DNA from: Rhodovulum adriaticum
GTDB lineage: Bacteria > Pseudomonadota > Alphaproteobacteria > Rhodobacterales > Rhodobacteraceae
Direction: 5' to 3'
Length of the DNA: 64,000 nucleotides
NCBI RefSeq assembly: GCF_004345735.1
Contig: NZ_SLXL01000001.1
Span: 1-64,000 of the forward strand
Positions 52,561-57,415 of the stretch are shown here, in pieces (position 1 is the stretch's first letter; each line of letters begins with the position of its first letter). The translations under genes and the position numbers were made by a program. Below the pieces are notes generated by a model. The model ran no database searches. It was not told the DNA's origin and saw only the letters and a list, made by a program, of their open reading frames with translations.

Positions 52561-52805
52561 ATGGCCGGCGGCCGGGAAAGGGCGCGGCAGGGGCAGGCGC
52601 GGTCAGGGCGCGCAGGCACCCGATTTCCCTTGACCCGGCATGACTTGAAGGCCGAACATCGCGGGGAACGGGACAGCGGCCCGGCGCCTGTGGCGGCCGC
52701 ACCCATGGCCGGCTGCCCCCTCGGGCGGCCCGACCCGGGCGCAGCATCCGACCGGCGCGCAGGGCGGCATGAACCCCGCCAACGCGACCGATCGGAGGAT
52801 GTCAG
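52561..52805 (+). other. Leader region of the EF-G-like gene, no gene seen
   Basis: Together with copy E this makes a 349-base gap. I see no coding frame of interest. TTGACC at 52630-52635 with GAACAT 18 bases on is a weak promoter candidate. CGGAGGATGTCAG just before 52806 supplies the ribosome site of the next gene. Confidence 0.4.
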
Positions 52806-54740
52806 ATGCGCTGTTTCACGATTTTGGGCCCCTCGCAGGCGGGCAAGACCACGCTGCTGAACGCGCTGAGCGCGCTGGAGGGGCGCGCCACCGCCGCCAC
52901 CTTTACCGACGCGCTGAGTGTGCGCCAGTTCACCTATCTGGATGAGCCCTGGGCCGGGTTCGACATCACCGGCGGCCCCGACTACCTGGGCCAGGCGGGC
53001 GAGGCGCTGGCCGCCTCGGATGCCGCCGTTCTGTGCGTCGGTCCCGATCCGCAGGCCGCGGTTCTGGCTGCGCCCTATCTGCGGCTGGTCGAGGAATCGG
53101 GCGTTCCCTGCTTTGTCTTCATCAACAAGATGGACCTGATGGATGCCCGCATCCGCGACATCGTCGGCGCGCTGCAGGCCTATGCCCAGCACCACATCAT
53201 TCTGCGTCAGGCCCCGATCCGCGATGCGGAGGGGCATGTGACCGGGGCGGTGGACCTGATTTCAGAGCGGGCCTTTCAGTATCAGGAGGGCCAGCCCTCG
53301 CGCCTGGTCGAGATCCCGGCCCATGTTCAGGACCGCGAGCAGGAGGCCCGCGCCGACCTGCTGGAACACCTGGCCGATTACGACGATCACCTGATGGAAG
53401 AGCTGATCGAGGATCGCGACCCCGCCCCCGAAGAAATCTACTCGGTCCTGGCCGAGGCGCATCGGGACAACCGCGTGATGGCCGCCTATCTGGGCGCGGC
53501 GGGGCATGGCAACGGGCTGACCCGGCTGATGAAGGCGCTGCGCCACGAGGCGCCTGGCATGTCGGTGCTCAGGGCGCGGCTGCGCGTGGCCGATCCCCTG
53601 GCCATCGGCGTGGCCGCCGACACCAAGCGCCATGTCGGCAAATCCATCCTGATCCGCGCCCTGGGCACCGGCATCCAGCACGCCGCGCCCCTGGCCGGCG
53701 ACACCATCGGCAACCTGTCGGGCATAGACGGCAAGCCGGTGGCCGAACCGCTGGCCCCCGGCACGCTGGCGGTGGCGGTGAAATCCGATCACCTGAACCC
53801 TGGCCTGGCCTACACCGCCCAGGACAGCACGCCGCTGCCCGGCTGGACCCACGGGCGCCCGCCTGCCTATGCCCGGCTGCTGTCCCCCGCAAATGAACGC
53901 GACGATGCGCGCCTGTCGGCCGCGCTGGCGCGCATGGCGGCCAGCGATCCGGGGATGGAAACCACGCAGGATCCGGCAACCGGGCAACTGCTGGTCTGGC
54001 TGCAGGGGCCGATCCACCTGCGGCGTGTTCTGGCCAAGCTGGCAGAGGATTTCGGGATCGCGGCAGAGGAACACCCCGTCTCTGGCATCTACCGCGAAAC
54101 GATCACGAAACCCGTGGACACCCACCACCGCCACCGCAAGCAATCGGGCGGCGCGGGACAGTTCGCCGACGTGCAGGTGACCGTGCGGCCGCAGGGGCGC
54201 GGCGCGGGCTTTGCCTTTGACGAAACGGTCAAGGGCGGCGCGGTGCCGCGCAATTATATCCCCGCGGTCGAGGCCGGCGCACAAGAGGCGATGGTGCGCG
54301 GGCCGCTGGGATTCCCGGTGGTGGATGTCGCGGTCACCCTGACCGATGGCAAGCATCACGCGGTGGACAGTTCCGACCATGCCTTTCGCACCGCCGCGCG
54401 AAACGGCGTGCGCGAGGCGCTGGAACAGGCCGGCGCGGTGGTGCTGCAACCCATCGACCGGGTCGATATCCATGTGCCCAGCGTCTATAGCGGGTCGCTG
54501 GTCGCACTGGCCAGCAGCCTGAAGGGGCAGGTTCTGGGGTTTGAGGCCCACCCTAGGGCGCGCGGCTGGGACGTGTTTCAGGCCCTGATCCCCGCCGCCG
54601 CGAAAGAGGAGCTGTTCCAGGCGCTTGGTGGGCTGAGCCACGGCACCGCCTGGTTCGAGGCCCGCTTCGATCATTACGAAGAGTTGCACGGCAAGGAGGC
54701 TGACCGCGTCCGCCAGGCGCGCGCCGAGGAACTGGCCTGA
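52806..54740 (+). CDS. EF-G-like translational GTPase with eroded G domain
   Basis: A 644-residue EF-G paralogue, shorter than true EF-G (about 695-705). The P-loop GPSQAGKT (8-15) and NKMD (107-110) are present, but only about 40 residues lie between the P-loop and the G3 region. The switch I segment with RGITI is missing, and the usual DTPGH is replaced by DITGGPDYLG. Domains III-V look intact: VWLQGPIHLRRVLAKLAE, HRHRKQSGGAGQFADV, VPRNYIPAVEAGAQEAM. GTP hydrolysis may be altered or lost. The main fusA must be elsewhere. Confidence 0.9.
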   Translation: MRCFTILGPSQAGKTTLLNALSALEGRATAATFTDALSVRQFTYLDEPWAGFDITGGPDYLGQAGEALAASDAAVLCVGPDPQAAVLAAPYLRLVEESGVPCFVFINKMDLMDARIRDIVGALQAYAQHHIILRQAPIRDAEGHVTGAVDLISERAFQYQEGQPSRLVEIPAHVQDREQEARADLLEHLADYDDHLMEELIEDRDPAPEEIYSVLAEAHRDNRVMAAYLGAAGHGNGLTRLMKALRHEAPGMSVLRARLRVADPLAIGVAADTKRHVGKSILIRALGTGIQHAAPLAGDTIGNLSGIDGKPVAEPLAPGTLAVAVKSDHLNPGLAYTAQDSTPLPGWTHGRPPAYARLLSPANERDDARLSAALARMAASDPGMETTQDPATGQLLVWLQGPIHLRRVLAKLAEDFGIAAEEHPVSGIYRETITKPVDTHHRHRKQSGGAGQFADVQVTVRPQGRGAGFAFDETVKGGAVPRNYIPAVEAGAQEAMVRGPLGFPVVDVAVTLTDGKHHAVDSSDHAFRTAARNGVREALEQAGAVVLQPIDRVDIHVPSVYSGSLVALASSLKGQVLGFEAHPRARGWDVFQALIPAAAKEELFQALGGLSHGTAWFEARFDHYEELHGKEADRVRQARAEELA

Positions 54741-54755: not shown

Positions 54756-56072
54756 CTAGTTCGCGGGCGTTTCCAGCCCCTCGGGCCGACCGACCACGAC
54801 AAAATGCAGTGCATCGGGCTGCAACAGGTCGGATGCCACGCGGCGGATATCCTCTTGCGTCACCGCGCGGATACGGTCGTTGCGCGTGGTGACGTAATCG
54901 GGGCTCAGCCCATCCATCTGCATGCCGACCAGAATGCGCGCGATCTTGGCGTTGCCGTCGAATCGCAGCGGGTAGGCCCCGGTCAGGTAGGTCTTTACCG
55001 CCTCCAGTTCCTCTTGCGTGACGCCATCCTGGGCCATGCGCGCCCATTCGGCCCGGATCACCTCGATCGCCTCGGCGACCCGCCCGTTGGACGAGGCCAC
55101 CTGCCCCAGCATCATCGGCGCAAGGTCCATCGGGTAGAGATAGGAATAGACGCCGTAGGTCAGGCCCCGCTTTTCGCGGACCTCTTCCATCAGACGAGAG
55201 CCGAAGCCGCCCGCGCCCAGAACCTCGTTCATCACATAGGCAGCAAAGAAGTCGGGATCGTCGCGTTCCATGCCCGGCTGGCCGAACACCGCCACCGCCT
55301 GCGGCGTGTCGAAGGGCACCACGGTTACACCGCCCGGCAGCCCGTAATCCGACTGCGGCGGCATCGGGGCGCCGGTTTCCGGCAGGCCCGCAAACAGCCG
55401 GTCCAGCAGCAGGCCCAGTTCCTGCGCCGTGATATCGCCCGCGGCGGCCACATACAGGCGGTCGCGCGCGATCACCCGTGCATGCGCCTCGACCAGATCG
55501 GCGCGGCGCAGCGCCTGCACGCTGTCCGCCGTGCCATCGGGGGCGCTGCCATAGGGATGGTCGCCAAAGGCCAGCCGATCAAAGGTCTGGCTGGCCAGCG
55601 CCTGCGGGTCCTTGGCATCAGAGGCAATGGCCGACAACACCTGCCCGCGCACCCGTTCGATCGCGTCCGCATCGAAACGCGGGGCGTGCAGCGACTGCCG
55701 CAGCAGATCCGCGGCCTGATCGCGGTTTTCGCTCAGCATGCGGGCCGACACCCGCAGCGAATCCGCGCCAACGTCAAAGCGAAAGCTGGCGGCCAGCGCA
55801 TCGCGGGCGCGGGCAAATTCGCGGGCGCCCATGTCGCCCGCCCCCTCCTCCAGCAGGGCCGTCATCAGGTTGGTCGCCCCGCGTTTGCCCGGCGCGTCCA
55901 GGCTGGCCCCACCACGAAAGCGGATTTCCAGCGCCACGAAGGGAATGTCGTGGCTTTCGACCAGCCACGCGCCCACACCGCCGGGCGATGTCACCTGCCG
56001 GATTTCAATCGCGGCCCGAACGGGCGCGGCCATCGTCAGCGCAAGCGCGAGGGCAAGAATCAGGCGCATCAT
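54756..56072 (-). CDS. M16 peptidase-like subunit without zinc motif
   Basis: A 438-residue M16B-family protein with signal peptide MMRLILALALALTMAAPVRA. At the site where active members have HxxEH it reads GKRGATNLMTALL, so it cannot bind zinc there. The C-half keeps the partner features GGFGSRLMEEVREKRGLTYG (Arg/Tyr pair that completes the active chamber). It overlaps the active subunit gene by four bases (ATGA), typical of heterodimeric M16B proteases in the periplasm. Confidence 0.92.
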   Translation of the reverse strand: MMRLILALALALTMAAPVRAAIEIRQVTSPGGVGAWLVESHDIPFVALEIRFRGGASLDAPGKRGATNLMTALLEEGAGDMGAREFARARDALAASFRFDVGADSLRVSARMLSENRDQAADLLRQSLHAPRFDADAIERVRGQVLSAIASDAKDPQALASQTFDRLAFGDHPYGSAPDGTADSVQALRRADLVEAHARVIARDRLYVAAAGDITAQELGLLLDRLFAGLPETGAPMPPQSDYGLPGGVTVVPFDTPQAVAVFGQPGMERDDPDFFAAYVMNEVLGAGGFGSRLMEEVREKRGLTYGVYSYLYPMDLAPMMLGQVASSNGRVAEAIEVIRAEWARMAQDGVTQEELEAVKTYLTGAYPLRFDGNAKIARILVGMQMDGLSPDYVTTRNDRIRAVTQEDIRRVASDLLQPDALHFVVVGRPEGLETPAN

Positions 56073-57415
56073 TGGGTCACCTCCGTCACCTCTGCCACGG
56101 GTCGCGACAGCCAGCCGGTCACGGCGTTCCCGCCTTTCAGAAGGTCGTGCGCGGCGGCCATCACATCCTCTGGCTTCACCGCCTGCAACACGTCGGGCCA
56201 GGCCTGCACATCCTCGATCGTCAGGCCAGAGGTCAGCGCGCGGCCATAGCGCCGGGCCAGTCCCTGGATGTTGTCACGGGCGTAGATCTCGGCGGCCAAC
56301 AACTGACTTTTGAGGCTGTCGAACAGGGCCGGGTCCACCCCCTCGCGCAAGAAGGCGGCAAGCGCCTTGTCCAGTGCGTCCTCGGCCGTTTCCAGCGACA
56401 CGCCGGGGGCGGGCACGACGAACAGGTTGAACGCAGTGTCGTCCAGAGACAGCCCGCCATAGGACGCGCCGGTATAAAGCGCGACCTGCCGCTCGAATTG
56501 CAGCCGCTCACCAAGGAAGGATGTGGCCCCCTCGCCCCCCAGCAATTCCGCCAGATAGGTCAGGGCGGCGGCGCGCCCCTGGTCGCCAGAGTCGCGTTCG
56601 GGGGCCAGATAGCTGCGCATCAGATAAGGCTGTGCAACGCGCGGATCCTCGAACATCACGCGCCGTTCGGCCAGGTGCGGCGGTTCCTGCGGGCGCACGC
56701 GTGCAGGCAGCGCATCCGACGGGGCCAGTCCGCCGAAATGCGTCTGCGCCATGTCGCGCACCGCATCGGGCGTCACGTCGCCGGCCACGACAAGGATGGC
56801 GTTGTTCGGCGCGTAATAGGTGTCGTAGAACGCCAGCGCATCGGCCTTGGACAGAGTTTCCATTTCATGCCGCCAGCCGATAATCGGGATGCCGTAAGGG
56901 TGGTTGAGGTAAAGCGCCGCGCGCATCTGTTCGCGAAACAGCGCGCCGGGGTCGTTGTCGGTGCGCTGGTTACGCTCTTCCAGGATCACGTCGCGTTCGG
57001 TTTCCACATCCGGCCCGGCTAGGCGCAGGTCGGTCATGCGGTCGGCCTCCAGCTGCATCATCAGGTCCAGCCGGTCGGCGGCGACGCGCTGGAAATAGGC
57101 CGTGTAATCCCAGGACGTGAACGCATTGTCGGACCCGCCCTGCGCCTTGACGATGCGGGAAAACGCGCCCGGCGCAACCTCGTCCGTGCCCTTGAACATC
57201 AGGTGTTCCAGGAAATGCGCGATCCCCGAAACGCCGGGCGGTTCATCCGCGGCGCCGACGCGATACCAGACCATGTTCACGGTGACCGGCGCGCGGTGAT
57301 CCTCGATCACGACGACCTGCAACCCGTTATCCAGGGTAAAGTCGGTCACCCGGTCGGCCGTCGCCGGACCTGCCCAGATCAGCAGAAGAACCAGTAGGTT
57401 GCGCAGTCGCCGCAT
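56069..57415 (-). CDS. M16 zinc peptidase, catalytic subunit
   Basis: A 448-residue periplasmic metalloprotease with signal peptide ending ATA near residue 20. The inverted zinc motif HFLEH is at 67-71 with the distal Glu in VILEERNQR. The first gene of the heterodimer pair; the second, zinc-less subunit follows with an ATGA overlap. Substrates are unknown, though related pairs degrade peptides in the envelope. It lies 85 bases downstream of the DUF3035 lipoprotein gene. Confidence 0.95.
   Translation of the reverse strand: MRRLRNLLVLLLIWAGPATADRVTDFTLDNGLQVVVIEDHRAPVTVNMVWYRVGAADEPPGVSGIAHFLEHLMFKGTDEVAPGAFSRIVKAQGGSDNAFTSWDYTAYFQRVAADRLDLMMQLEADRMTDLRLAGPDVETERDVILEERNQRTDNDPGALFREQMRAALYLNHPYGIPIIGWRHEMETLSKADALAFYDTYYAPNNAILVVAGDVTPDAVRDMAQTHFGGLAPSDALPARVRPQEPPHLAERRVMFEDPRVAQPYLMRSYLAPERDSGDQGRAAALTYLAELLGGEGATSFLGERLQFERQVALYTGASYGGLSLDDTAFNLFVVPAPGVSLETAEDALDKALAAFLREGVDPALFDSLKSQLLAAEIYARDNIQGLARRYGRALTSGLTIEDVQAWPDVLQAVKPEDVMAAAHDLLKGGNAVTGWLSRPVAEVTEVTQ

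Follow-up and report, generated by a model that had tools for sequence, protein, structure and literature searches.

Translational GTPases read GTP through a threonine of switch I together with the G3 loop, and hydrolyse it with the G3 histidine. Among EF-G paralogues, the available sections of the literature describe Bacteroides EF-G2 as translocating without GTP hydrolysis (Han et al. 2023; PMC12775393, PMC10294740), with Bacteroides fusA2 raised 238-fold and fusA lowered ten-fold on carbon limitation (PMC6989115), and M. smegmatis EF-G2 as having no ribosome-dependent GTPase (PMC3832671). In the same sections, T. thermophilus EF-G-2 has GTPase activity (PMC3832671, PMC3150367), and mtEFG2 and Borrelia EF-G2 are recycling-only paralogues (PMC3832671). 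The EFG II subfamily was defined by Margus, Remm and Tenson in 2011 (PMC3150367); an EFGII protein is reported to be able to stand in for EF-G, though it translocates far more slowly, and its role is there called unknown (PMC4342817). In the literature searched, which for PMC3150367 means sections of the text as distinct from the figures and supplement that map indel regions I-XI, we found no EF-G described as lacking switch I. Both the subfamily and GTPase-less EF-G are thus known; a clade from which switch I has been removed has, as far as we searched, not been described.

The window analysed here, a 64,000-nucleotide stretch of Rhodovulum adriaticum DNA, carries an EF-G-like gene (Table 1) whose protein scores 743.2 bits against NCBIfam NF009379 (PRK12740.1-3, elongation factor G; cut-off 513), covering profile positions 8-672 of 674. 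This cut-off is not specific by itself, since some fusA proteins narrowly exceed it too (up to 520 bits). In a tree made without reference EFG II, spdEFG or Tet sequences, 88 rows including the window branch apart from three fusA rows (SH-aLRT 100). Furthermore, the P-loop positions that separate EFG II (16 = Gly, 25 = Leu) from EFG I (Ala, Thr) correspond, in our alignment of the PMC3150367 numbering to the window, to G8 and L17; Gly is found in 33/33 and Leu in 30/33 of the switch I-less proteins described below. As the available text of PMC3150367 describes it, the alpha-proteobacterial and cyanobacterial EFG II sub-subgroup resembles the window protein in this P-loop Gly and Leu (Ala and Cys/Thr in fusA), in a domain II Lys at a position that is Gly in fusA, in a conserved domain IV, and in the presence of a fusA-like gene in the same genome (11/11 genomes checked here). 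It differs in that it retains both a G2 (R/HxMS/GV) and DxPG, where the window protein has no G2 segment and reads DITGG.

Taken with the G2 of its full-length relatives, and on trees that include no sequences labelled EFG II by PMC3150367, these features place the window protein in the known group NF009379/EFG II. The initial annotation knew of no function assigned to paralogues of this kind; the group itself is an established one. Neither the EFG II G2 motif xxxSx (Ser, or Thr/Gly) nor the EFG II G3 motif DxPG is present: the former segment is absent from 33/33 switch-less proteins, and the window reads DITG at the latter. The window protein also lacks the RGITI-type switch I and catalytic G3 His expected of a translational GTPase. 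By these motifs, the switch-less proteins so descend from EFG II but lack one of the motifs that define it (G2). Against the Bacteroides EF-G2 model NF058620 the window protein reaches 199.8 bits, below the cut-off of 1000.

Table 1 Features of the switch-less EF-G paralogue gene in the window
Feature	Position	Strand	Basis or remark
CDS, switch-less EF-G paralogue (EFG II, NF009379), 644 aa	52806..54740	+	ORF reading, profile score
GGAGGA, ribosome-binding-site-like, 6 bases 5' of ATG	52794..52799	+	read from sequence
G1 / P-loop GPSQAGKT, residues 8-15	52827..52850	+	G8, G13, K14 invariant in 33/33 switch-less proteins
Short link at the place of switch I/G2 (RGITI), residues 23-36	52872..52913	+	alignment, model
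G3, DITGG instead of DTPGH, residues 53-57 (DITGGPDY 53-60)	52962..52976	+	motif reading
G4 NKMD, residues 107-110	53124..53135	+	motif reading
G' subdomain, approximately residues 129-219	53190..53462	+	boundaries set from alignment
G5-like AA, residues 231-232 (SA in EF-G)	53496..53501	+	motif reading
Domain II, approximately residues 250-344; K326 clade-invariant	53553..53837	+	boundaries set by us; no Pfam match
Domain III (EFG_III), residues 353-421	53862..54068	+	profile match
Domain IV (EFG_IV), residues 429-542	54090..54431	+	profile match, 135.3 bits
Domain IV tip loop KQSGGAGQ, residues 445-452	54138..54161	+	K445, Q446, Q452 invariant in 33/33
H518, aligned with the EF-G domain IV tip histidine	54357..54359	+	same residue in all 33 switch-less, 47 full-length and 21 fusA proteins
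Domain V (EFG_C), residues 547-634	54444..54707	+	profile match

Canonical EF-G is encoded elsewhere in the same genome, as the initial annotation had suggested checking: a 706-aa fusA frame with RGITIT, DTPGH and NKMD lies at G000:C13:79496-81580. The window protein shares its five domains and domain IV tip, and differs from it in RGITIT, in DTPGH and in the spacing between G1 and G3. Only 37 residues separate the P-loop from G3 in the window protein by motif count, compared to 56 in 44/47 full-length relatives (the remaining three have 50, 51 and 54) and 67 in the three fusA proteins counted, so that the interval is 19 residues shorter than in most full-length relatives. The same G2 segment is missing from 33/33 switch-less proteins, where the spacing is 37-39 residues, and a shortening shared by 33 sequences is no assembly error or chance. 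The 47 full-length relatives are a chosen spread from the sequences in hand, not the whole set.

The initial annotation had proposed an EF-G paralogue without switch I but with intact P-loop and NKMD motifs, and both the loss of the RGITI segment and the presence of the two motifs are borne out. Its description of a lost DTPGH holds in that G3 reads DITGGPDY; absence of the His, however, is not special to this protein, as 0/47 full-length relatives have it. NKMD is itself unusual within the switch-less clade, in which G4 reads NR in 28/33 proteins and NK in only 2/33. Across the 33 proteins the P-loop GK is found in 33 and the G1 T/S in 32 (A in L027); the G3 Asp in 28 (E in 4, Y in 1), the G3 Gly in 33 and the G3 His in 0; the G4 Asn in 32, Lys in 2 (R in 28) and Asp in 33; and the G5 Ala in 33. 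Thus, as read from these motifs, ligands of the base and phosphates appear mostly kept, and Mg and gamma-phosphate sensing weakened or gone. The full-length relatives carry S (41), G (4) or T (2) at the fourth position of G2, and DxPG is present in 47/47 of them vs 7/33 switch-less proteins. Within the remaining link (residues 23-41), no column of the 33 switch-less proteins has Ser/Thr above 42%, so the link proper shows no conserved residue that could take over from the Mg-binding Thr. L24 and F42 do not vary, and Ser/Thr is found in 76% at residue 43, inside the strand that follows the link. Three switch-less proteins with full-length open frames lack additional nucleotide ligands: L027 reads GKA/YVPGG/NGID, L024 GHMD at G4, and L066 EMPGG/NQMD; in L024 and L027 the lost ligands are those of Mg or the base. 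Between the GTP-locked and the nucleotide-independent factor suggested in the initial annotation the motifs favour neither, the P-loop GK and G4 Asp never changing while such single members have lost ligands.

An AlphaFold2 model of the window protein, for which the window was combined with 63 of the 80 loci scanned, was obtained with a mean pLDDT of 92.7, a pTM of 0.87 and no residue below 50. Between helix 14-22 and strand 37-44 it places only a short strand (28-32), whereas the connection in a full-length control model (L081) is longer and includes a helix (53-58). A switch I supplied intact by another segment, which would have undone the original proposal, is not seen among the helices and strands of the model; a short ordered link is predicted instead. 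The Pfam matches on the window protein are GTP_EFTU, EFG_III, EFG_IV and EFG_C, in line with the earlier reading that domains III-V are conserved; the G-domain match begins only at residue 52, past the place of switch I, and domain II has no Pfam match. In Foldseek comparisons the model is nearest to EF-G, with ribosome-bound EF-G (8p2g, TMq 0.84, Z 37.8) among the best matches. The ribosome-bound shape of the model was considered as evidence of locking and rejected, the full-length control and free 1wdt being alike.

Characterised EF-G paralogues resemble the model in fold too. Bacteroides thetaiotaomicron EF-G2 (8dmf), likewise a second EF-G beside fusA, and T. thermophilus EF-G-2 (1wdt/2dy1), likewise EFG II, are among the best matches with TMq 0.85 and 0.84; M. 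smegmatis EF-G2 (9k0z) and mtEFG2 on the 39S subunit (7nsh) reach 0.80 and 0.77. Against a full-length EFG II query, the G domains align over 137 to 137 residues (10-146 to 1-137) in Bacteroides EF-G2 (718 aa), 132 to 132 (15-146 to 9-140) in M. smegmatis EF-G2 (709 aa) and 132 to 132 in T. thermophilus EF-G-2. Judged by aligned length, none of the three has a net deletion at switch I, and the window protein does have one. The GTPase-less precedents in Bacteroides and M. smegmatis would therefore have been reached by another route.

To describe occurrence we used an order sample of 149 genomes from 73 genera of the window's order, all labelled with the window's own family. EF-G-like matches are found in 149/149 of these genomes, and matches of at least 700 bits to NF009379, clearly above the fusA level (520 or less), in 25/149 among the matches listed, which represent the strongest end, so that a very degenerate member could be missed. 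Among these listed matches, 22 of the 25 genomes (12 genera) carry a switch-less protein and 3 a full-length one; the statement in the initial annotation that Rhodobacteraceae hold paralogues of this kind was thus correct. The 33 switch-less proteins comprise the window's, 21 from the order sample (L007-L028 minus the duplicate L020) and 11 (L064-L074; Ruegeria, Leisingera, Boseongicola MAG, Phyllobacterium, Rhizobium and others) from a profile scan of genome contigs, in which 80 loci were kept of at least 593 matches, so that no frequency follows from it. Over the columns used for the tree, L015 does not differ from L064. In 11 genomes behind named loci, each holds one EFG II-type protein (switch-less in 7, shortened in 2, full-length in 2) and, apart from it, a fusA-like match. 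An extra EF-G-like frame of 646-688 aa with a weak two-piece NF009379 match is seen in the genomes of L069, L071 and L074 (G437:C5:377252-379105, G438:C28:459665-461506 and G440:C42:225390-227249), and could be a Tet(M)/Otr(A)-like protein or another EF-G paralogue. Rhizobium etli FusA2 is reported in extracellular proteomes (PMC2964644, PMC9855851), where in the available text the name may denote either the switch-less protein or fusA.

Trees were inferred from post-G4 columns only, so that the trait itself does not shape the topology. A tree of 91 chosen rows unites all 33 switch-less proteins (SH-aLRT 100 for their branch, which has a stem length of 0.70), and a bootstrapped tree of 63 chosen rows including 18/33 switch-less proteins gives the branch 100/100 support and recovers it as a single branch in 200/200 bootstrap trees. 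On these trees, deletion of the G2 segment defines one clade. Its deepest branches, L073 (Boseongicola MAG) and L017, still read DCPGS at G3, and five Rhizobiaceae-type proteins read D-A/T-P-G in four cases and DTSGS in one; the other 26 have xxxGG, 21 with D, and Pro is retained in L027, L028 and L066. Since the deepest branches still carry DCPGS, switch I was probably lost first and G3 decayed afterwards; the retained Pro in L027, L028 and L066 and the moderate support for deep branching order within the clade (85/86 and 86/82) make this the simplest reading, not proof.

Switch I is also shortened in alphaproteobacterial EFG II proteins outside the main clade, by 16 residues in L087, 14 in L143 and, by eye, about 12 in L168, L169 and L170. 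L087 and L169 have no recognisable G2, and L168, L170 and L143 retain one. L087, L168 and L170 cluster with 100/100 support; L169 lies nearby, where its fork with full-length L171 lacks support. A topology joining L087 and L169 to the switch-less clade was rejected (p-AU 0.0006), a test weakened by the group having been named after the first tree.

Each of the 33 switch-less genes is one open frame of 634-662 aa after trimming of leading extensions; frames were cut at stops, and hence their length is the informative point (a TGA flagged as internal in L028 sits at the frame end). Approximate Nei-Gojobori dN/dS is 0.023-0.151 for ten switch-less pairs with dS up to 1.12, five further saturated pairs (dS 1.4 or more) being left out. 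A total of 123/644 sites are invariant, 41 of them in domain IV, including K445, Q446, G448, G449, G451, Q452 and H518; Q446 and H518 do not vary in the 47 full-length relatives or the 21 fusA proteins examined either. In EF-G, glutamines and a histidine of the tip contact the codon-anticodon helix, and this histidine (H573/H583) is the one aligned with H518. Because the P-loop GK, the G4 Asp and the tip residues are invariant in 33/33 proteins and dN/dS is low, the switch-less paralogue is, judged by its sequence constraint, a working protein and not a relic.

Mean pairwise identities were compared over domain limits that we set. Among switch-less proteins of 21 genomes they are 0.62 (G core), 0.69 (G'), 0.54 (end of G plus II), 0.57 (III), 0.73 (IV) and 0.63 (V), vs 0.96, 0.76, 0.86, 0.95, 0.88 and 0.92 for fusA of the same genomes; the mean identity of the switch-less clade to fusA of 21 genomes is 20% over the G core and reaches 50% over domain IV. 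The excess of domain IV over the G core is +0.106 [0.039,0.175] in the switch-less proteins vs -0.080 [-0.127,-0.034] in fusA. However, full-length EFG II (n=47; G core 0.51, IV 0.64) shows the same bias, +0.127 [0.055,0.201]; the bias thus belongs to the wider group and was rejected as specific evidence for switch loss. For the excess of G' over the G core in the switch-less clade (+0.066), the interval spans zero. A dN/dS comparison with fusA (0.026-0.136, higher in 7/8 pairs) was not used; it is uninformative because fusA dS is low and 5/8 paralogue pairs are saturated.

Gene neighbourhood was dropped as a functional clue, as neighbours vary: they differ among six switch-less loci read by eye from ORF starts, and no conserved neighbourhood pointing to starvation or any pathway was seen there. 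An aspartate-aminotransferase-like gene, named by eye, lies near EFG II in 29/70 loci (over 9 kb, window included), on the same strand in 27/29, at 1.4-6 kb upstream in L085, L113, L107, L131 and others and downstream in L081 and L090; it is near 0/12 switch-less loci. In the window itself, two adjacent M16 peptidase genes occupy 54756-57415 (-). The gene at 56069-57415 matches Peptidase_M16 and Peptidase_M16_C and that at 54756-56072 the C-terminal domain only (E < 1e-10), which looks like an active/inactive M16 pair.

With the switch I Thr deleted and the G3 loop and its His changed, the window protein is very unlikely to run a normal GTP switch cycle, and its motifs strongly suggest failure as a GTPase. 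The kept G' subdomain, whose charged region is described in the available text as the L7/L12 contact (PMC3150367), and the kept domain IV tip suggest work on the ribosome, which the protein very probably binds. We propose, at roughly even chances, a ribosome-binding EF-G-like factor that serves as a slow, GTP-hydrolysis-free accessory translocase like Bacteroides EF-G2. Briefly, an EFG II member is without the switch I segment, and hence without the GTP-sensing part of the G domain; its predicted fold is still that of EF-G, and it very probably docks into the ribosomal factor site by way of G' and the domain IV tip. Because the P-loop GK and G4 Asp are invariant in 33/33 proteins, most members probably still bind guanine nucleotide, as a fixed part of the fold; the gamma phosphate would not be read, nor the usual hydrolysis carried out. 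Binding energy, not GTP hydrolysis, would then drive slow accessory translocation when fusA output or GTP is low, and translocation with use in starvation is, by analogy, the most likely employment of the protein.

Such a factor could instead sit in the A/factor site when ribosomes are idle or stalled, storing them or helping RRF to split them, without translocation. A protein whose release is not timed by GTP hydrolysis would suit stable occupancy, the recycling-only mtEFG2 and Borrelia EF-G2 (PMC3832671) offer precedents in the text available, and the model fits mtEFG2 on the 39S subunit too; yet the translocation-linked tip residues Q446, Q452 and H518 are invariant in 33/33 proteins, a Pfam scan of six window neighbours found no RRF or hibernation-type gene, and we consider occupancy, rescue or recycling, the chief alternative, rather unlikely. 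That the protein is still a GTPase, its active site completed by the ribosome or by a residue outside switch I and its GTP cycling slow, appears improbable. The P-loop GK, the G3 Gly and the G4 Asp do not change in 33/33, residue 43 is often Ser/Thr, and T. thermophilus EF-G-2 hydrolyses GTP despite the relaxed EFG II G2 (PMC3150367, in the sections available); but the whole G2 segment is missing here and not merely altered, no conserved Ser/Thr of the link substitutes for it, the G3 His is absent from 33/33 switch-less and 47/47 full-length proteins, 5/33 have E or Y in place of the G3 Asp and 31/33 another residue in place of the G4 Lys.

Ribosomal protection against an antibiotic, in the manner of Tet(M)/Tet(O), is highly unlikely. 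The overall architecture is alike and Tet protection models do match weakly, but the best of them, the tetracycline ribosomal protection model NF012153, gives 146.2 bits vs a cut-off of 775 and Tet(M) 36.4 vs 1420, the tip residues of domain IV are those of EF-G, and the six scanned neighbours are not resistance genes. The antibiotic-response role floated in the initial annotation is, with these scores so far below cut-off, poorly supported. It is scarcely credible, finally, that the gene is decaying without function: lost G motifs, worst in L027, and patchy presence (22/149 genomes among the matches listed) would fit, but full-length open frames in 33/33, the low dN/dS of ten pairs and the 123/644 invariant sites speak against it.

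Beyond a slow accessory translocase that still holds its nucleotide in the fold, we also entertain, as an unlikely version of the same theme, a nucleotide-insensitive translocase in which the nucleotide would be a structural cofactor only, perhaps unbound in L027 and L024, and the binding of a rigid domain IV alone would drive translocation. Were this true, the shortened proteins L087, L168-L170 and L143 would represent intermediate stages of such a course. Whether EF-G needs GTP hydrolysis, or any GTP switch, is still debated (PMC12775393, in the text available). The proteins described here form a natural series, running from full-length EFG II (changed G2, no His) through loss of switch I with DCPGS retained (L017, L073) and a changed G3 (window, Ruegeria) to loss of G1/G3/G4 ligands (L027), and such a series would tell apart what translocation owes to the binding of nucleotide, to the sensing of the gamma phosphate and to hydrolysis.
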